From the NCBI GenBank assembly GCA_019351975.1, contig JABBOG010000011.1:1-64000 (forward strand): a stretch of 64,000 bases of DNA, written 5' to 3'. This document shows positions 31,390 through 40,839 of the stretch, in pieces (the stretch's first letter is position 1; each line of letters opens with the position of its first letter). The stretch comes from Acidobacteriota bacterium. Lineage in GTDB: Bacteria; Acidobacteriota; Terriglobia; Terriglobales; Acidobacteriaceae. Below the pieces are notes generated by a model. That model saw only the letters and a list, made by a program, of their open reading frames with translations, was not told where the DNA came from and made no database searches. The translations under genes were made by a program, and so were the position numbers.

Positions 31390-31776
31390 ATGGATAGTGT
31401 GCGAATGGATAAGTGGCTGTGGGCGGCGCGGTTCTTCAAGACGCGCGCGCTCGCAGCCGACAGCTGCGATATGGGCAGGATATCGTCGAATGAGCATGCG
31501 GCGAAGGCGGCGCGCGATGTTCGTGTGGGTGACGTGCTCCGCGTGAAGAACGAAGCAGGCGAGTTTGTGGTGGAGGTACTCGGTTTGAGCAGTGTGCGGG
31601 GACCGGCGGCGGCGGCGCAGATGCTGTATCGCGAGACAGAGGCCAGCAAAGCTGCGCGTGCGAAGGCGGAGGCAGAACGTAAGGCAATGGCGGCCTATGC
31701 TATACCAGCAGGACGGCCGAACAAGCAGGATCGGCGCAAGATCAACAAGCTGCGCGGGCGGATTATCGGATTTTGA
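31390..31776 (+). CDS. hslR: S4-domain RNA-binding protein, Hsp15-like
   Basis: 128 aa. The S4 domain runs from MDKWLWAARFFKTR through DVRVGDVLRV, as in Hsp15, which binds free 50S subunits that carry a stalled nascent chain after heat shock. The lysine/arginine-rich tail (AKAEAERKAMAAY, then PNKQDRRKINKLRGRIIGF) agrees. The ATG at 31390 gives five extra residues; the ATG at 31405 fits the family start better. Homologous genes are often near heat-shock genes; here the neighbours are an SDR gene and the KaiC island. Confidence 0.85.
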   Translation: MDSVRMDKWLWAARFFKTRALAADSCDMGRISSNEHAAKAARDVRVGDVLRVKNEAGEFVVEVLGLSSVRGPAAAAQMLYRETEASKAARAKAEAERKAMAAYAIPAGRPNKQDRRKINKLRGRIIGF

Positions 31777-31909: not shown

Positions 31910-32596
31910 CTAGTTCGAATACTCGTTCAACGACGGGTGGAGAACGCTATCGCGTGATCCGCCAGCCTTACTTCGGATGATGGTGAAAACATCCAGACTT
32001 GACGCAATACGGCGGATATTTCCCGCAACACTCATAAGCTCTTCGACGCCATCATGCGTGTCCGCCAAGATCTCAAGGCGTTCGCTTACATGCCTTAGCT
32101 GATTGGCTTCGGTCAAGATGTTCTCGAATGGGCCAAGATAATTGGTTCCGGCCGCGACGATGCGCGGCGGTGTCGTGTCGAGCTCTGCGGTTGCTTCATT
32201 TTCGGGAGACAGTTCTGCTATCAAGCTTGCAGTCGCCGACTCGCCCAATAAGGTAAGGAGCAGTCTGAGGAATTCTGTAATGAGGATGATCCCAGCATCT
32301 CCATCGTCATCTCGATCCATATCCGTTCGTGGTTGAACTTCGGTAAGACCGCTCAAGCCTCCGTCGGGCAGAATCTGCACCTCACGCAGCCTTGGGGTTT
32401 GGGACTTGGCGAGAGAAAGCGCACGAGACGCGAGGGCTTGAAACCCTTCGACCCCCACAGGCGCGCAAAGCTGTCGCCGCAGCTTTTCATAGACGCAAAG
32501 AGTTGCGGTTTCACTCTGCGCACAAGTCGGATCAGGTGTACTCTCGGAGGCAATAAGCTTACGAGCCCAGTCGCGAACCATTGTTTGAGTATTCAT
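31910..32596 (-). CDS. Uncharacterised protein, paralogue of the kaiC-coupled small protein
   Basis: 228 aa, no recognised domain. Residues 1-130 align with the protein encoded at 33013-33432: both have an ARKLI/AQRLI helix, a DP step, a KLR core, VGxxGFxxLxxRALxLAK, PDGxLxGL, and a hydrophobic helix ending in GES. The C-terminal extension (130-228) is predicted helical (LRHVSERLEILADTHDGVEE, then NIRRIASSLDVFTIIRSKA) and is unique to this copy. It is read away from the kaiC operon across a 416-bp shared control region. The base composition matches the island, not hslR. Regulator, adaptor or scaffold roles are open; function unknown. Confidence 0.65.
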   Translation of the reverse strand: MNTQTMVRDWARKLIASESTPDPTCAQSETATLCVYEKLRRQLCAPVGVEGFQALASRALSLAKSQTPRLREVQILPDGGLSGLTEVQPRTDMDRDDDGDAGIILITEFLRLLLTLLGESATASLIAELSPENEATAELDTTPPRIVAAGTNYLGPFENILTEANQLRHVSERLEILADTHDGVEELMSVAGNIRRIASSLDVFTIIRSKAGGSRDSVLHPSLNEYSN

Positions 32597-33012
32597 CGGA
32601 CCTCACTTAAAACTGCTCGCCTTCGTGCCCAGAAGCATCGGCATGGTGTTACGTATCGATCCTTCGGGAACCAAATACGGGCTTTGACCGCGCACTTTGG
32701 GATTCTTACACCCCTTTAAATTACTTGGAAGATCTACTTCAAGACGAGCAAGATTGACCAGAGTCATTGGAGATCAGGGCAATCGGTTTGATGCGCGCAG
32801 TAGCCAGACCAAAGTGCCTATGGATGTGCAGTGAACCATGTTGTGCGGAGACGACTTCTTGAGACACCACCCGTCCCCGCACACTTCGTGCGCCGTAAGG
32901 GAGCTATGTTACTCATTTCATAGCAAGGAGAGTGTTCCGTTTTGATCTATCAGCGGATTTGTTATGGAGTAGGCTTATAGTTTCTGCTACCGGTTACGAA
33001 TGTCAACGAACG
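32597..33012. promoter_or_regulatory. Divergent control region of the KaiC island
   Basis: These 416 bp separate the two paralogous small-protein genes and hold no other convincing gene. They must contain promoters for both directions. Notable bits: an imperfect dyad around AGATCT (CTTGGAAGATCTACTTCAAG, near 32727-32746) and a Shine-Dalgarno-like AAGGAG at 32925-32930. The latter sits 1 nt before a GTG that would add 27 residues to the downstream gene; that spacing is too short, so the GTG start is not favoured. The composition is AT-richer than the surrounding DNA. Confidence 0.45.
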
Positions 33013-33432
33013 ATGATGCGAAGTGCAGATGAACCTACAACACGCGAGCTCGCCCAACGACTTATAACGTATGAGGGAAGCCAAATAGATCCTGCCGACG
33101 GAAACATCTATGCGGTGGGCCGCGTCTGCGATAAGCTGCGAGGTCCCTTAGCGACATTGGTTGGACCAGCGGGATTTTGTTCGCTCCTGATGCGCGCATT
33201 GACTCTGGCAAAGCGTGATGCCCCAGTGCTCAGCGCATGGGAGGTCAGGCCGGACGGGTCACTGGAGGGTTTGAGTGACGAGACAACTCAAATGGGTGCT
33301 GTGCTCATTGCTCAGCTTATCGGGCTGATGATCACATTTATCGGCGAGTCTTTGACACTCCGTCTCCTGCGTGATGTGTGGGTAGATCTGCCGGACTCCG
33401 CAGCGATGGTTGAAAGGAATGAATCAGAATGA
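33013..33432 (+). CDS. Small helical protein translationally coupled to the KaiC-like ATPase
   Basis: 139 aa from the ATG at 33013 (ATGATG). A GTG at 32932 would give 166 aa but has poor spacing and adds residues not shared with the paralogue. It is homologous along its length to the first 130 residues of the protein at 31910-32596. Its last codons overlap the KaiC start (ATGA, 33429-33432), so the two proteins are made together and likely interact. A hydrophobic helix (GAVLIAQLIGLMITFIGESL) is long enough for a membrane segment but may be a buried helix. No known KaiA or KaiB similarity was seen. Function unknown. Confidence 0.68.
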   Translation: MMRSADEPTTRELAQRLITYEGSQIDPADGNIYAVGRVCDKLRGPLATLVGPAGFCSLLMRALTLAKRDAPVLSAWEVRPDGSLEGLSDETTQMGAVLIAQLIGLMITFIGESLTLRLLRDVWVDLPDSAAMVERNESE

Positions 33433-34916
33433 AGGAACAAAACAAGGTCAAGATCAATCAATTGCCAACCGGAGTGCCTGGGCTCGATGAGATACTTGGC
33501 GGCGGACTGCCTGAGTTTTCGTTCAATATTATTGCCGGAGCGCCTGGATGCGGAAAGACAACCCTGGCGCATCAGTTCATTTTCGCCAATGCCACGGTGG
33601 AGCGCCCAGCCCTTTACTTCACGGTGATGGGAGAACCTGCACTGAAGATGCTGCGCTACCAGCAGCAGTTCACCTTCTTCGATGCTGCGAAGCTGAACAG
33701 CGCAGTGCGATTTATCAACCTGAGCCAGGATCTTATCGAGCGCGGACTCCAGGGAGTATTGGAAGAGATTGCCAAGCAGGTAGAAGCCGCCAACCCGAGC
33801 ATTGTGGTGGTGGATTCCTTCCGCACCGTGCTGCGCAGCGAGATGCACGAAGGTAAGGAGATGGTAGTCCAGACTTTCGTGCAGCAATTGGCGCTGCTGC
33901 TGACGAGCTGGGAGGCGACTACCTTTCTGATCGGCGAGTATTCCGAGACGGAGGTGCGGGAGAATCCCGTATTCACTGTTGCCGACGGGTTGTTCTGGCT
34001 GTTTCAGCAAGTGGACCGTAACTCCGTGGTGCGCAAGATGCAGATTATGAAGCTGCGGGGACAGGCTTCGGTGCCGGGGCTGCACACCTTCCGCATCACC
34101 GAAGACGGTTTGCAGGCCTTCTCACGCACTCTTGGGCTGGTGGGACAGAGGAAGACATTCAACCGCGTGAAGTACCTCTCCATGGGGATTCCTGCGTTGG
34201 ACGAGATGATGGGTGGAGGTGTACCGGAGGGAGACAGCCTGCTGATCGCCGGGTCGTCTGGAACTGGCAAGTCCTTGATGGCGACGCAATTCCTTGCAGC
34301 GGGCATACGCGCAGGTGAGCCCGGCATCGCGGCAGTCTTTGAAGAGCGACCGAACGAATACACGGCACGAGCATCTGAGTTCGGACTCGATCTCCAGACG
34401 CCGCTGGCCAACGGAACGCTTGAGGTGATCTACCTGCGGCCACTCGACTTGTCCGTGGACGAGATGATGCAGGAGATTCTTGACGCTGTAAAGAGGACGG
34501 GCGCGAAGCGTTTGGTGATCGACTCTCTGGCAGGATTTGAGATGGCCCTGGCACCGTCCTTTCGTGCCGACTTCCGCGAGTCGCTCTACCGTATGATCTT
34601 TGCCCTCACCGCGGTCGGTATCACCATCCTGAGCACGCTCGAGATGCCGGAGACATTCACTGAACTGTCGTTCAGCAGCTACTCCATCTCGTTTCTCACG
34701 GACGACATCATCCGGATGCGTTATGTCGAGATCGATGGTCAACTGCGCCAGATCCTGATGGTAGTGAAGATGCGTCGGGGTGTGCACAGCCGAGATATCC
34801 GGCAGTACGAGATCACGGCTGACGGAATCATTATTGGCGAGCGCTTGAAGAGCTTCGTTGACCTTGTCACCGGCATTCCAAAGCCGCGTTCAGGAGTGTT
34901 GCGCTTCGACGAATAG
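33429..34916 (+). CDS. KaiC-like double RecA-domain ATPase
   Basis: 495 aa with two tandem KaiC domains. CI has Walker A GAPGCGKTT (37-45) and Walker B SIVVVDS (124-130). CII has GSSGTGKS (275-282) and RLVIDSL (361-367). The catalytic glutamate pair is kept in CII (E305-E306, VFEERP), but the aligned CI sites read M67-G68. In the CII phosphosite segment (SISFLTDDII), S421 aligns with S431 of cyanobacterial KaiC, but the Thr that follows is replaced by F422. The C-terminal KMRRGVHSRDIRQYEIT block is typical. The family gives ATP-driven hexamers used in clocks and signalling. It is coupled to the small protein before it; a histidine kinase gene follows after 30 bp. Confidence 0.92.
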   Translation: MKEQNKVKINQLPTGVPGLDEILGGGLPEFSFNIIAGAPGCGKTTLAHQFIFANATVERPALYFTVMGEPALKMLRYQQQFTFFDAAKLNSAVRFINLSQDLIERGLQGVLEEIAKQVEAANPSIVVVDSFRTVLRSEMHEGKEMVVQTFVQQLALLLTSWEATTFLIGEYSETEVRENPVFTVADGLFWLFQQVDRNSVVRKMQIMKLRGQASVPGLHTFRITEDGLQAFSRTLGLVGQRKTFNRVKYLSMGIPALDEMMGGGVPEGDSLLIAGSSGTGKSLMATQFLAAGIRAGEPGIAAVFEERPNEYTARASEFGLDLQTPLANGTLEVIYLRPLDLSVDEMMQEILDAVKRTGAKRLVIDSLAGFEMALAPSFRADFRESLYRMIFALTAVGITILSTLEMPETFTELSFSSYSISFLTDDIIRMRYVEIDGQLRQILMVVKMRRGVHSRDIRQYEITADGIIIGERLKSFVDLVTGIPKPRSGVLRFDE

Positions 34917-34946
34917 ATCTTCAACGAAGCCCTAGCAAGAGGCAAA

Positions 34947-36167
34947 ATGGAAACCGAATTTTTCGACAACGTCACGCAGGAGATTGATCTACCAATGCTA
35001 TGCCGAAGTGTTGGCGACTCTTCGCCGATGCCGATGGCAGGATTGGGCGGTTCTCTACACACCGTGCGCTATGTCAACCTTGCCTTTTGCCTGCTTACCG
35101 GAAAATCGAAGGACGAACTGATAGGAACGGTCTTCTGCGGCGTTGCTCCAGGCATGAACGAATGCGTGTTATTGCTTGACCGTGTCGTCAAGACGGGCCT
35201 GGCGGATAGCCATATCGGGCAAGGGAAGACCGCCGCACATCCTCTTTACTGGTCGTACGCGATGTGGCCTTTGCTCGCGGCGGACCACAGCCATCTTGGA
35301 ATCATGGTTCAGGTTATTGAATCGGGAAAGTTTCACGATGACGCGATTGCGATGAATCAGGCGTTGTTATTAGGGGCGCTGCGCCAGCATGAGTTGAGGG
35401 ACGCCGCCGATCAGTTGAATGCTCAACTGCAGGCAGCGATCGTACTGGCAAAAAAAGCAGAGGAGGCGCTGATCGGCAGCGAGAAGCTGGCGTCTGCCGG
35501 ACGGATGGCTGCCGTGCTGGCGCATGAGATTAACAACCCTCTTGCCGCCATGATGAACCTCCTGTTTCTGGCGCAGACAAATGCAGACACGCCAGCACCC
35601 GTGCATCAGTATCTGAAGATGGCCGATGATGAACTGAAACGCATTGCCCACATTACGCGCCAGACTCTCGGTTTTTATCGCGAATCCTCTGTGCCAACGA
35701 CTTTTCTTGTCGCTACCTTGCTGAACTCCGTGATCGACCTGCTGCAGGCGAAGATGGTGTCAACGCATGTCGTTGTGAAAAGGGAGTGTGATGATCTCCT
35801 GGAAGTTACCGCGATCTTCGGTGAACTGAGACAGGTGGTTTCGAACTTGATGCTCAACAGCCTCGATGCAATCAGTGAGGGTGGCGTCGTTGCGTTGCGA
35901 ACTTCCATATCGCGGAGCCCACTGGACGGAAGCAAGCGGATCCGTATAACGATTGCGGATAATGGCCCAGGCATCCCCGCGATGGCTGGACCGAGGATTT
36001 TTGAGCCCTTCTTCACGACCAAAGGTTCAACAGGAAATGGCCTGGGCCTGTGGGTGTGCAAGCAGATTATTGAGAAGCATCACGGCTCCATCAGTGTCCG
36101 TTCTCGCACACGTGAGCCGAGAGGAACAACGTTCTCGGTCGTTATACCCCAAAAGCCCATTCTTTAG
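34947..36167 (+). CDS. PAS-domain sensor histidine kinase
   Basis: 406 aa, no membrane segments, so cytosolic. Residues about 25-125 resemble a PAS sensor; a coiled coil follows (about 135-180). The dimerisation helix has the phosphoacceptor H193 (LAHEINNPLA). The HATPase_c domain has N300/N304 (VSNLMLNSLDA), DNGPGIP (338-344), FEPFFTTK and GNGLGLW. It autophosphorylates on His and passes phosphate to a receiver. None is encoded beside it; the nearest is at 40231-40839. The 30-bp gap to kaiC suggests cotranscription, parallel to the KaiC-SasA partnership, but the N-domain is PAS-like, not the thioredoxin-like KaiB-type fold of SasA. Confidence 0.9.
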   Translation: METEFFDNVTQEIDLPMLCRSVGDSSPMPMAGLGGSLHTVRYVNLAFCLLTGKSKDELIGTVFCGVAPGMNECVLLLDRVVKTGLADSHIGQGKTAAHPLYWSYAMWPLLAADHSHLGIMVQVIESGKFHDDAIAMNQALLLGALRQHELRDAADQLNAQLQAAIVLAKKAEEALIGSEKLASAGRMAAVLAHEINNPLAAMMNLLFLAQTNADTPAPVHQYLKMADDELKRIAHITRQTLGFYRESSVPTTFLVATLLNSVIDLLQAKMVSTHVVVKRECDDLLEVTAIFGELRQVVSNLMLNSLDAISEGGVVALRTSISRSPLDGSKRIRITIADNGPGIPAMAGPRIFEPFFTTKGSTGNGLGLWVCKQIIEKHHGSISVRSRTREPRGTTFSVVIPQKPIL

Positions 36168-36315
36168 TTTTGCTCGATCTAAGCAGGATGTACTCCGCAC
36201 CGCAGAAATGTGAAGAGAATAAGCTACTAGCAGCTCGCAGTTCCGGTCAATTGATGGATGTGTAGTCACTGTCATAACCATCGCGACGAACGACGAACAC
36301 TTTTGGAGAGCAACC

Positions 36316-37932
36316 ATGCCCGCAAGTACGCCGGATCTATTCAAGCAGCTGCATGTTCAGCCTATAGTCGGTCTGAACAATACATTTCCGCCTTTAGGCA
36401 GGAACATCAAGGTCTTGCTCGTCTGGCCACGTTTTCCAAGTTCCTTCTGGGGTTTTGAGGGAGTTCTGGAGATGACTCCGGAGCGGTCCGTGATGCCACC
36501 TTTAGGATTAATCACAGTAGCTGCACTTTGTCCGGCATCCTGGGAACTTCGCCTGCTCGATCTCTCTTTCGACCAGTTGCGCGATGAAGATCTGCTGTGG
36601 GCCGATTTGGTTATGGTAAGCGCCATGCAGGCACAGCATGACAGCACGTTGTCTGTGTTAGCCAAAGCTCACGCACATGGGCGAAGGACCTTTATCGGTG
36701 GTCCATGGGCGAGCAGCGAGCCCGAATTCCTGCTCACAAAAGCGGACCATGTTCTGGCAGGAGAAGCCGAAGAGGTCTTTGCCGATATTGCATCCGCTCT
36801 GGAAGACGGCCATGCCCGGGCCCTATACCGCGTCATTGAGAAGCCGGACATGTCTACAAGTCCAATGCCGCGTTTCGATCTGCTGCAGTTAAAGGAATAC
36901 ACATCGATGTCTGTGCAATTCTCGCGAGGATGCCCTTTCCAATGTGAGTTTTGCGACATCATTACTATCTATGGCCGCAGACCGCGAGCGAAGTCGCCAA
37001 CCCAGGTGATTGCGGAGCTGGACGCACTGCGCGGCATGGGCTGGCACAATGAAGTTTTCATCGTCGACGACAACTTCATCGGGAACCACAAACTTGCTTT
37101 GCAACTCACGCACGAGCTCTCCAAGTGGCAGGATCGCAACGGCCGTGCAATCTCGTTCTACACCGAAGCGTCGGTTGATCTTGCGGATAAACCCGAACTG
37201 CTCGCGTCGATGGTGGATGCGAACTTCATGTACGTCTTTCTTGGCATTGAGACGCCCTCTGCCGAGGCATTGAAAGGGTCTTCCAAGTTCCAGAATCTGC
37301 GTGGCGATCTTGTCACTCAGGTACAGAAGATCCGTCAAAGCGGTCTGTGGGTCATTGCTGGCTTTATCGTGGGCTTCGATTCAGACGACGAAACGATCTT
37401 TGAACGGCAGCTGCAATTCATCGACAAGACTGCAATAACATGGGCGATGGCCGGCGTTTTGCAGGCACCTCCAACCACGGCGCTCTTCGACCGGATGAAG
37501 CGTGAAGGTCGGCTGATTGAGAACAGCCCCGCTACGTCAAACTTCAGCCCTCCCAACTTCCGAACGGTGCTTCCGCTCCCGGTGCTGCTGCGTGGATTGA
37601 GTCGATTGCTCACTGGTCTGTACACGCCAGAGTCGTACTTTCGCCGTGCTTTCAGCTCCATCGAGTCGTGGAATCCTGGCCCAAGGCAACGTCCTCCTGA
37701 ACTATCCCTTGGCTACAATCTGCGCGTGCTGTTTTCGTCCATGTGGCTGCAGGGAGTTTGCTCAAATTACCGGGTGGCCTACTGGCGTTTTCTGCTGCTA
37801 GCAATCCGCAAATGGGCACGCAAGCCCGCCAAGATGTGGCTAGGATTTATGGTGCTGATGTCTGCAAACCATTTTCTGAAGTACGCAGCCCTGGTGGCTG
37901 AGGATCTGGAGGAGTACTGTCGCGAGATGTAA
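36316..37932 (+). CDS. B12-binding radical SAM protein, HpnP-like (DUF4070)
   Basis: 538 aa. The N-terminal cobalamin-binding-like domain (about 30-170) precedes the radical SAM core, whose iron-sulfur cluster ligands are C206, C210 and C213 (CPFQCEFC). FIVDDNFIGN and the YGRRPRAKSPTQVI stretch match the DUF4070 group that includes HpnP, the hopanoid C-2 methylase. Methylation of an unactivated carbon is the expected chemistry, with cobalamin as methyl carrier. Whether the substrate is a hopanoid is not shown: no squalene-hopene cyclase is in the window and the family has paralogues. It follows the histidine kinase gene by 148 bp on the same strand. Confidence 0.82.
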   Translation: MPASTPDLFKQLHVQPIVGLNNTFPPLGRNIKVLLVWPRFPSSFWGFEGVLEMTPERSVMPPLGLITVAALCPASWELRLLDLSFDQLRDEDLLWADLVMVSAMQAQHDSTLSVLAKAHAHGRRTFIGGPWASSEPEFLLTKADHVLAGEAEEVFADIASALEDGHARALYRVIEKPDMSTSPMPRFDLLQLKEYTSMSVQFSRGCPFQCEFCDIITIYGRRPRAKSPTQVIAELDALRGMGWHNEVFIVDDNFIGNHKLALQLTHELSKWQDRNGRAISFYTEASVDLADKPELLASMVDANFMYVFLGIETPSAEALKGSSKFQNLRGDLVTQVQKIRQSGLWVIAGFIVGFDSDDETIFERQLQFIDKTAITWAMAGVLQAPPTTALFDRMKREGRLIENSPATSNFSPPNFRTVLPLPVLLRGLSRLLTGLYTPESYFRRAFSSIESWNPGPRQRPPELSLGYNLRVLFSSMWLQGVCSNYRVAYWRFLLLAIRKWARKPAKMWLGFMVLMSANHFLKYAALVAEDLEEYCREM

Positions 37933-38019
37933 ATGAGACAGAAAATGGCTCGGCCGTGATCGTGCTCTAACGGCTCGTGTCAAAACTATATCCGACCGCA
38001 ATCGCATGCGTGCCGGAGT

Positions 38020-38724
38020 TTATTCGTGATCGGCCACAACTGGTCCGCGTGCCGTTTGGTCCGGCAATCGGTCGTGGAGGACCACATTCAGAAGAGCCTT
38101 GTGAACATGGATTCGACCGTTGTAGCTGACGTAGCCGAGCTTACGGAATTTATTCATAAATTTGCTGACGCGAGACCGTGTGGTGCCGATCATGTCGGCG
38201 AGCTCCTCCTGCGTGACTGGAGGGATCATGCTCTCCGGTTCACCTGGCTTGCCGAACTCCGCCATGATGAGTAAGGTGCGTGCGAGGCGTTTTTCGCTGT
38301 TGTTGAATAACTGGTCGATCAAGTCTTCACGTGTCCTGACCCCGCGGAGCAGAACGAATCTCAGGAAGATATCGGAGAATTCGTGTTGCTCGTGCAGCAG
38401 CAGAAGCATATCCTTGCGGCTCAGTTTCAGAGCTTTGCAGGGCGTGATGGCTGTTGCAGTGGCATCGTGAAGCTCGGTGCCACCAGCGAGCATCTCTTCA
38501 CCTATAAAGTCGCCGGCACCGAGCATTGTAACGGTTGCTTCTTTCCCCTTTTTCGAGACGACGGTGAGCTTTGCTCTGCCTGAATCGAGAAAGAATATGG
38601 AGTCCGCCATGCCGCCTTGTGCGAAGAAGATATGCCCAGCCTTGAGCTGAACCATCTTATGCGTTACGCCGGCTGCCTCCAGAAAACGCGCAGGATCGAA
38701 GAGAGTTCGCTTGGTACCCGGCAT
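38020..38724 (-). CDS. Crp/Fnr-family transcription regulator
   Basis: 234 aa. The cyclic-nucleotide-like beta-barrel domain (about 20-140) carries GDFIGEEMLAGG in the phosphate-binding-cassette position. It lacks the Arg-Ser of true cAMP binders, so the ligand is uncertain. A dimerisation helix follows, then a winged helix (TQEELADMIGTTRSRVSKFMNKFRKLGYV, about 172-200). There is no N-terminal Fnr-type cysteine cluster. It converges with the radical SAM gene and may regulate the KaiC island. A palindrome GTGAGC-N6-GCTCAC lies 94 bp upstream of its start. Confidence 0.88.
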   Translation of the reverse strand: MPGTKRTLFDPARFLEAAGVTHKMVQLKAGHIFFAQGGMADSIFFLDSGRAKLTVVSKKGKEATVTMLGAGDFIGEEMLAGGTELHDATATAITPCKALKLSRKDMLLLLHEQHEFSDIFLRFVLLRGVRTREDLIDQLFNNSEKRLARTLLIMAEFGKPGEPESMIPPVTQEELADMIGTTRSRVSKFMNKFRKLGYVSYNGRIHVHKALLNVVLHDRLPDQTARGPVVADHE

Positions 38725-38856: not shown

Positions 38857-39801
38857 CTACTGCTTGTCCACGATGAGACCGGTGGATTGCGCCTGCTCGT
38901 GGGCATGATAGCTGGAACGGACGAGCGGTCCGGACTCGACGTGACGGAAGCCCATGGCAAGGGCTTCGTGCTTTAGGAACGCGAACTCGTCGGGCGTGTA
39001 GAAGCGCGACATCGGCAGGTGGTCGCGCGATGGACGCAGGTACTGGCCGATGGTGAGGATGTCGACGCGGCGGTCGGCGAGGTCGCGGAAGACGCCGAGG
39101 AGTTCGTGCATCTCTTCACCCATACCGACGATGATGCCTGTCTTGGTGACGATGGGGCCGAGCGCGTGGGCTGTCGACTCTCGTTTAGCTTCGGCGAGGA
39201 ATTGAAGGCTACGCTCGTAGCGCCCGCCGGATTTGGCGACGCGATAGAGGCGTGGGACGGTCTCGATGTTGTGATTGAGGATCTCTGGGCGCGCGTTAAC
39301 GACCATCTCGCGGGCTTTAGCGACACCCTGAAAGTCGGGCGTGAGGACTTCGATCTGCGTGCCGGGCGACTGAGTGCGGATCTCGGTGATGACGTTGACG
39401 AAAGCCTGGGCTGCGCCGAGGTTATCGTCGTCGCGGTTGACGCTGGTGATGACGGCGTGGGCGAGGCCGAGTTGGGCGACGGCGTAGGCGACGCGTGCGG
39501 GCTCGCCGTGGTCGATGGGCTCGGGCTTGCCTTTCGGGACGGCGCAGAAGCCGCAGCGGCGGGTGCAGAGGTTGCCGAGCATCATGAAGGTGGCGGTCTT
39601 GTGGTTCCAGCACTCGCCGATGTTGGGGCAGTGGGCGCTTTCGCAGACCGTGTGGAGATTGAGGTCGCGGGCAAGCTTCTTTAGGGCGTGGAAGGTTTCT
39701 CCCATCGGTGCACGAGCTTTGAGCCATGCTGGTTTCGCAGCGGGCTTCTGCGGCGTGAGGTCGATCTGAATCAGCGCGTCGGATTGGACCAGAGGGGCCA
39801 T
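38857..39801 (-). CDS. lipA: Lipoyl synthase
   Basis: 314 aa. This radical SAM enzyme inserts two sulfur atoms into octanoyl groups on the E2 subunits of pyruvate dehydrogenase and related complexes. The auxiliary cluster motif CxxxxCPNIGECW (CESAHCPNIGECW) and the SAM cluster CTRRCGFC are both complete, and the conserved C-terminal RSSYHA supplies the Ser ligand. The N-terminal PAWLKARAPMG and a GHHPTTER-type tail variant are normal. It stands alone: lipB is not adjacent. Confidence 0.97.
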   Translation of the reverse strand: MAPLVQSDALIQIDLTPQKPAAKPAWLKARAPMGETFHALKKLARDLNLHTVCESAHCPNIGECWNHKTATFMMLGNLCTRRCGFCAVPKGKPEPIDHGEPARVAYAVAQLGLAHAVITSVNRDDDNLGAAQAFVNVITEIRTQSPGTQIEVLTPDFQGVAKAREMVVNARPEILNHNIETVPRLYRVAKSGGRYERSLQFLAEAKRESTAHALGPIVTKTGIIVGMGEEMHELLGVFRDLADRRVDILTIGQYLRPSRDHLPMSRFYTPDEFAFLKHEALAMGFRHVESGPLVRSSYHAHEQAQSTGLIVDKQ

Positions 39802-40230: not shown

Positions 40231-40839
40231 TTGTCCGCAAGCCCCTTCCCGTACAGAATCTTGATTGTTGAGGACGAGGAGAGTCTGCGTGATGTCGGCA
40301 AGATGCTGCTCATAGCGCAGGGGTACGAGGTTCGCACAGCGGAGGACGGGTTTGAGGGGCTGTCCGCGCTGAAGCAGTCGCTGCCGGACATCATTATCTC
40401 GGACCTGCAGATGCCGAATATGAATGGGTTTGAGTTCTTGTCGGTTGTGCGGCGGCGGTTTCCGACGATCCCGGTGATTGTGATTTCGGGTGAGTTTTCC
40501 GGGTTGTCGGTGCCGGAGAGCGTGCTTGCAGATGCGTTCTTTCCGAAGGGCGGTTACAATCCGAGCCAGCTGTTCGAGAAGATCATCGATCTCCTGCACG
40601 AACTTCCGACGCGGCCCAAGACCGGCAGACCGAATCAAGCGGCGGTATGGGTGAAGAACGACCGCGGAACGATTGCGGTGAGCTGTTCGGAGTGTTTGCG
40701 GACCTTCCCGGTGTCAAACGTAGAATCGGGCGTCAATGAAGCGGAGTGCGACTTCTGCGGATGCGTGGTGCACTTCGAGATCATCGGGACATCCAAACCT
40801 TCAAGAACCCTCTCCAGCAGGATGCTGTCGCAGATCTGA
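40231..40839 (+). CDS. Response regulator with C-terminal zinc ribbon
   Basis: 202 aa from a TTG start at 40231 (AGGAC upstream). The receiver domain (about 8-125) has D15 in the acidic pocket, phosphoacceptor D58 (ISDLQMP), S86 and K106 (FFPKGG). A short linker leads to a ribbon with C152-x2-C155 and C173-x2-C176 (plus C178) that replaces a DNA-binding output domain. It may act by protein contact. It lies 3 kb from the orphan histidine kinase at 34947-36167 and is the only receiver in the window, so the two could be partners. It converges with the next small gene (5 bp apart). Confidence 0.82.
   Translation: MSASPFPYRILIVEDEESLRDVGKMLLIAQGYEVRTAEDGFEGLSALKQSLPDIIISDLQMPNMNGFEFLSVVRRRFPTIPVIVISGEFSGLSVPESVLADAFFPKGGYNPSQLFEKIIDLLHELPTRPKTGRPNQAAVWVKNDRGTIAVSCSECLRTFPVSNVESGVNEAECDFCGCVVHFEIIGTSKPSRTLSSRMLSQI

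Follow-up and report, generated by a model that had tools for sequence, protein, structure and literature searches.

Outside cyanobacteria, relatives of KaiC occur widely and many of them have no KaiB, which raises the question of their partners. The question takes a concrete form at positions 31910-38724 of the window (the whole 64,000-nucleotide stretch of a soil bacterium that was analyzed), where a sequence-only reading had seen a probable acquired KaiC-centred island and had inferred a clock-like or redox/light-responsive switch. Which of its six genes belong together, how did they arrive and what would this KaiC do? All six open reading frames exist at that place. On the plus strand, B (33013..33432) codes for a small helical protein of 139 aa from an unnamed family and lies directly 5' of kaiC (33429..34916), which codes for a double-domain KaiC-type ATPase of 495 aa. 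The stop of B and the start of kaiC overlap in an ATGA, and an alternative, earlier GTG start for B at 32932 is possible. The gene for a PAS-type sensor histidine kinase, the probable output, starts 30 bases past kaiC (34947..36167, plus strand). Divergently from B runs A (31910..32596, minus strand), a 228-aa paralogue with an added C-terminal helical region; the intergenic stretch separating both (32597..33012) could be partly aligned with two relatives. The other two genes code for a B12-binding radical SAM protein (36316..37932, plus strand) and a Crp-type regulator (38020..38724, minus strand). The locus is bordered on the left by the gene of a 128-aa protein conserved in relatives (31390..31776, plus strand) and on the right by lipA (38857..39801, minus strand), for which the lipoyl synthase model scored above its cut-off.

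The protein identities proposed from the sequence were borne out. PF06745 was found in two stretches of KaiC, corresponding to two KaiC/RecA domains, and the kinase carries HisKA and HATPase_c together with a PAS match that stays below cut-off. The B12-binding radical SAM protein has DUF4070, and the minus-strand protein is indeed of the Crp type. The two small proteins are paralogous (33% identity over 134 positions, E=1e-15) and of unknown kind, neither A nor B having a match in Pfam, NCBIfam, PHROGs or PADLOC. In comparisons with relatives, dN/dS came to 0.19 and 0.22 in A and to 0.20 and 0.29 in B, with KaiC at 0.05 (two relatives) and the kinase at 0.14 (one relative); these ratios are rough because dS is high. 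A range of 0.05-0.29 suggests for all four (A, B, KaiC and kinase) real genes maintained by selection. The scan for promoters and terminators gave nothing above chance, and the intergenic alignment, which took in five loci, was of little use because two of the pieces were poorly chosen. Neither RNA families nor tRNA were found within the 64-kb window. An inverted repeat of 19 bases (89% complementary) joins 31591-31609, inside the left flank gene, and 32867-32885, upstream of B.

The B family has no match in Pfam for any of its 77 members, and in NCBIfam just two stray single-member matches appeared (E about 0.001). B is predicted, at fair confidence (pLDDT 82, pTM 0.77), to fold into six helices plus a small hairpin, whereas the model of A is of low confidence (pLDDT 69.5). 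Foldseek gave no match for B at E<=0.001, the best VIA-align Z was 5.5, within the range that its notes term common, and the B profile found nothing under E 0.59 among the sequences of solved structures; B may nonetheless have a known fold. With residues counted from base 33010, G52, L106 and G112 are invariant in the family and R44, R62, D82, G83 and W124 nearly so. A second A/B gene was present in 27 of 80 loci (the best 80 of 517 relatives). A is an additional A/B protein, seen in Acidobacteriaceae and kin, and in Acidobacteriaceae it often accompanies B-kaiC.

The linkage of B and kaiC was examined in related loci. One scan of a species-genome collection gave 517 relatives, the best 80 of which were kept as loci, and in 78 of these 80 B lay directly upstream of this type of KaiC. 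The two exceptions (L108 and L131) are contigs that end within 185 bases of kaiC. Since the loci are the best 80 of 517, the figure applies to the nearer members of the clade. Among 101 genomes of relatives, KaiC orthologues of at least 66% identity were found in eight, own genome included, and the A/B profile also hit eight, namely seven of the KaiC carriers and, with a weak match (E=5.6e-4), G061; in the eighth carrier, G069, the contig stops 43 bases upstream of kaiC. Of a wider set of 396 Acidobacteriota genomes, with three KaiC candidates scored per genome, 16 carry B and 15 a KaiC of this clade (E<=1e-80); the 15 all belong to the 16, and in every one of them B adjoins KaiC. In the sixteenth genome, G408 (L148:1056-1929), a B-like gene leads nearly straight to the terminal part of a histidine kinase gene and there is no KaiC in the stretch examined, an arrangement that may be a deletion or an assembly fault. 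As for Comamonadaceae, B was detected in 14 of 200 genomes and a KaiC of 50-68% identity stood beside it in 13 of the 14, a count that runs in one direction only, from B matches to KaiC. The remaining match, in G535 (L168:1273-2757), has no KaiC in reach, and the gene downstream of it codes for a GGDEF protein (diguanylate cyclase).

Plasmids reproduce the arrangement. Five plasmid records had a KaiC at E<=1e-60, and B was located just upstream of the four with 51-61% identity; it was not found upstream of the fifth, with 31% identity. A plain search recovered the plasmid B in Paracoccus only, and three Caballeronia B genes were detected by profile (E 2e-11 to 3e-13). The Paracoccus plasmid has the order B, KaiC, HWE kinase and receiver with transposase genes on both sides. 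Two Caballeronia plasmids (L254, L255) carry a diguanylate cyclase after B-KaiC in place of the kinase, and in the third B is present with no intact KaiC gene listed. In G345 no stop separates B from KaiC and the two share a single open frame, with a possible internal start at the KaiC methionine, and in L123 (Verrucomicrobiia) a receiver domain is found at the start of the B frame. The distances of B and KaiC were correlated as expected of co-inheritance (Mantel r 0.77), with B changing faster (median distance 0.57 vs 0.27 for KaiC). The B-kaiC linkage is near-obligate across phyla, the phylum labels being those of the MAG titles, with two phyla coming from one MAG each and L069 probably mislabelled. 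The small proteins do accompany kaiC in other genomes, contrary to one of the two outcomes that would have refuted the sequence-only reading. The suggestion that the coupled small protein is the partner of KaiC also gains from these counts (78 of 80 loci, 15 of 15 Acidobacteriota genomes, one in-frame joining).

The conserved core of the locus is B plus KaiC, often followed by a PAS kinase. The proposed tie between kinase and KaiC was recovered beyond the window, with a homologue of the window's kinase (E<=1e-8) in 48 of the 80 loci. The program that picked downstream genes returned one in 73 loci, 72 of them above the length limit, and we analyzed 61 proteins, i.e., 60 of these 72 (12 short ones were left out) plus the kinase of the window. 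PAS_4 was found in 43, HATPase_c in 40, HisKA in 38 and a receiver in 17, and the count of 40 kinases in 61 is rough, wrong or cut genes having been chosen in some loci (e.g., L100 and L131). A linker motif, composed after viewing the consensus, was present in 38 of the 61, mostly near residue 140, and in none of eight outgroup loci. Against a kinase output as a general rule, 21 of the 61 proteins lacked HATPase_c, and kaiC stands without an adjoining kinase in several loci of Acidobacteriaceae. Past lipA, at window positions 40231-40839, there is a receiver-domain protein on which the kinase might act.

Our main reading, to which we assign a probability of roughly 60%, is that of a portable signalling module, in which a KaiC ATPase switch free of KaiA and KaiB is set by the small partner B and has a kinase as output. 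The linkage, the gene joinings and the lack of the usual Kai proteins (described below) point to B as acting on KaiC. B, made from the overlapping gene just upstream, would most likely bind the KaiC ring and set its ATPase or conformational state; as B has no recognised fold, this binding is something that we infer. The state of KaiC would then be read by the signalling protein encoded downstream, here the PAS histidine kinase, which would in turn act on a response regulator encoded elsewhere. A probably competes with B or tunes it. A broader and more tentative proposal, which we hold to be slightly less probable than its opposite, is a third class of KaiC system, in genomes labelled as six phyla. 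The helical A/B family would take here the role of KaiB, KaiA or the SasA-type N-domain, binding the KaiC ring and gating a kinase or diguanylate cyclase output without a two-site phosphorylation cycle. The B genes of G408, without KaiC, and of G535, beside a GGDEF protein, count against the main reading, as do the varying downstream genes and the possible internal start in G345.

Instead of a switch, A and B could be helpers in the expression or folding of KaiC, either chaperone-like or translationally coupled stabilisers, with no role in signalling. The tight upstream position with overlapping genes would suit such helpers, as would the faster change of B relative to KaiC. However, the receiver domain fused to B in L123, the B genes without KaiC next to signalling genes and the second A/B gene under selection are all better suited to signalling, and we consider the helper function unlikely.

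The type of KaiC bears on whether such a module could keep time. We built a quick tree of 114 rows, made up of 106 clade rows (some of them one genome fetched twice) and eight outgroup KaiCs, six of these from the genus of the window. The clade rows were separated from the outgroup by a long branch with full support. Both halves of the window KaiC have Walker motifs, and both Walker A motifs are intact. At the positions of the cyanobacterial phosphosites it has Ser421-Phe422, and over the 106 rows the pair was SF in 88 and AF in 18, so that the second site is Phe throughout. The ATP sites of this KaiC are kept while the second phosphosite is lost. The outgroup KaiCs have SY in all eight cases, and in three outgroup loci (L015, L017 and L022) KaiC has beside it a kinase whose N-terminus, judged by eye, is receiver-like. 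B was found in none of the 22 loci L015-L036. The partner thus appears to follow the type of KaiC, with B in the SF/AF clade and a kinase with receiver-like start, without B, in the SY loci.

We also searched for the other Kai proteins, using Synechococcus elongatus as control. KaiA (PF07688) was absent from all 24 carriers and detected in the control. KaiB (PF07689), for which the control scored above cut-off, was not found in the own genome (95% complete) nor in 21 of the 24 carriers; in one of the three that have it, G033, KaiB adjoins a different KaiC-like gene. The statement that no kaiA or kaiB is present thus extends to the whole assembly. Besides, the window KaiC fell below the cut-offs of the circadian equivalogs (246 vs 408 bits for NF006799 and 153 vs 546 bits for TIGR02655). 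With KaiA absent, KaiB mostly absent and Phe at the second phosphosite in 106 of 106 rows, a phosphorylation clock like KaiABC is unlikely, and the label of clock-like was not supported in its cyanobacterial sense. A timer of clock or hourglass type might nonetheless be imagined, in which B replaces KaiB and KaiC phosphorylation still measures time. In its favor, the KaiC is double with both ATP sites, the first phosphosite is Ser in 88 of the 106 rows and a kinase lies downstream, as in the kaiC contexts for which De Luca et al. (2011, PMC3164672) suggested an hourglass. Yet the first site is Ala in the other 18 rows and the second is Phe in all of them, KaiA and KaiB are missing in 24 and 21 of 24 carriers, respectively, and that same paper argues that a KaiC which cannot phosphorylate two residues is unlikely to keep a cycle going, all of which makes a timer improbable. 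The switch set by B is the reading that we keep.

The last question is how much of the six-gene stretch belongs to the module and how it came here. The lipA gene was found in 27 of 28 genus genomes and its surroundings were read in 12. In G001 and G016, lipA directly adjoins the SDR gene known from the window's left flank; in G017 its immediate neighbour is the 128-aa gene, at most 6 bases away, and in G024 the 128-aa gene lies about 450 bases off. G002 and G022 have other genes between the left-flank genes and lipA, and in the other six of the 12 regions left-flank genes were not found near lipA. A close KaiC was present in only 3 of the 28 genus genomes, which does not fit vertical inheritance through the whole genus. 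The KaiC tree places Granulicella sequences at three positions and groups one family member (G159) with Verrucomicrobiota, although many forks are weak. Acquisition is supported by this patchy distribution and by the relatives whose flanking genes abut, not by composition. The stretch would be an insertion in the own lineage, probably by transfer, judging from gene order and distribution. No integrase was found among the proteins scanned in the stretch, nor telling direct repeats at its flanks. In two Granulicella relatives (L209:4199-9490 and L212:10679-14595) other cargo, including a 914-aa TonB-type protein, lies between the 128-aa gene and lipA, so this interval may be a variable site. A phage origin found no backing, a search of the phage collection having given nothing for KaiC at E<=1e-20. 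A defence system was discarded too, since the PADLOC hits of KaiC appear to be of the generic ATPase kind and neither A nor B has any.

The claim that base usage differs from the flanks held locally, with a GC of 0.54-0.57 vs about 0.60-0.64 around it and a GC skew near 0 vs about 0.2-0.3 along the greater part of the left side and past 41 kb, but is weak against the genome, in which the mean GC is 0.591 (sd 0.032) vs 0.544 for the locus and 4 of 33 equal-size pieces are as low. The tetranucleotide distance was ordinary, with 16 of the 33 pieces as far or further, and a foreign composition was not borne out. We therefore rejected composition as proof of transfer. Over the window, a strong excess of G over C on the plus strand covers most of the first 50 kb and falls to about zero at 31-38 kb and beyond about 56 kb.

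Membership in the module was judged gene by gene. The radical SAM gene was in none of the 80 related loci even at E 1e-3, its orthologues (78-79%) are found in G002 and G022, both without B, and more distant ones appear in G005, G007 and G015. It was rejected as a member of the module and is an independent neighbour. Crp homologues are widespread in the genus (12 of 28 genomes, with four in the own genome), and the closest copies to the window Crp (69%) are those of G027 and G016, both without B. Crp homologues are also found a short way upstream of A in 12 of the 27 loci that have A (43-60% identity). We downgraded Crp to a loose associate of the module at most. The six genes hence do not stand as one unit. 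That the whole stretch is a single acquired island with a common function would agree with the placement of all six between genes that abut in relatives, with the lower GC common to them and with the Crp homologues near A, but the radical SAM gene is found elsewhere in relatives and never in the 80 loci, the nearest Crp copies belong to genomes that lack B, neither radical SAM nor Crp nor flank genes appear on the 13.6-kb kaiC contig of G013, a member of the same genus, tetranucleotides are ordinary and there are no flanking repeats of note, so that we give this possibility very little weight.

What is left is B and KaiC with a frequent kinase. The recurrence of the B-kaiC pairing in several phyla suggests that a KaiC signalling switch with a partner of its own is widespread, and we found no account in the open PMC literature of a small protein encoded upstream as partner of this KaiC. 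A small unnamed protein tied to one KaiC clade in several phyla is a concrete and testable partner. If the reading is true, KaiC ATPases would serve as signalling switches with exchangeable partners.

With the KaiABC oscillator of S. elongatus the locus shares a KaiC ATPase of two domains and two Walker A/B sets, as well as a small partner gene near kaiC. It differs in that the own genome has neither KaiA nor KaiB, the second phosphosite, Thr there (S431/T432 or like), is Phe here, and the partner gene is the unrelated-looking B. In De Luca et al. (2011, PMC3164672), a 'second context' is described in which kaiC goes with a specific histidine kinase, without kaiB, the N-terminus of the kinase resembling receiver, SasA or KaiB domains. 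The histidine kinase after kaiC and the lack of kaiB in most carriers are common to both, whereas the present clade has B, SF/AF sites and PAS kinases, a separation made from the published description of that context. The N-terminus of the window kinase gave just a weak PAS match. In the SY-type KaiC loci of the same genus, the kinase begins much as described there, with a receiver-like stretch (three loci, resemblance judged by eye), and B is lacking. The 'third context' of the same paper is one of heterogeneous kaiC neighbours with varied signalling, and the section devoted to it does not mention a conserved small upstream gene such as B. Its phosphosites are poorly kept, with SF and AF listed among them, and its signalling neighbours are varied, as they are here; the present KaiC clade may be part of the 'third context' group.
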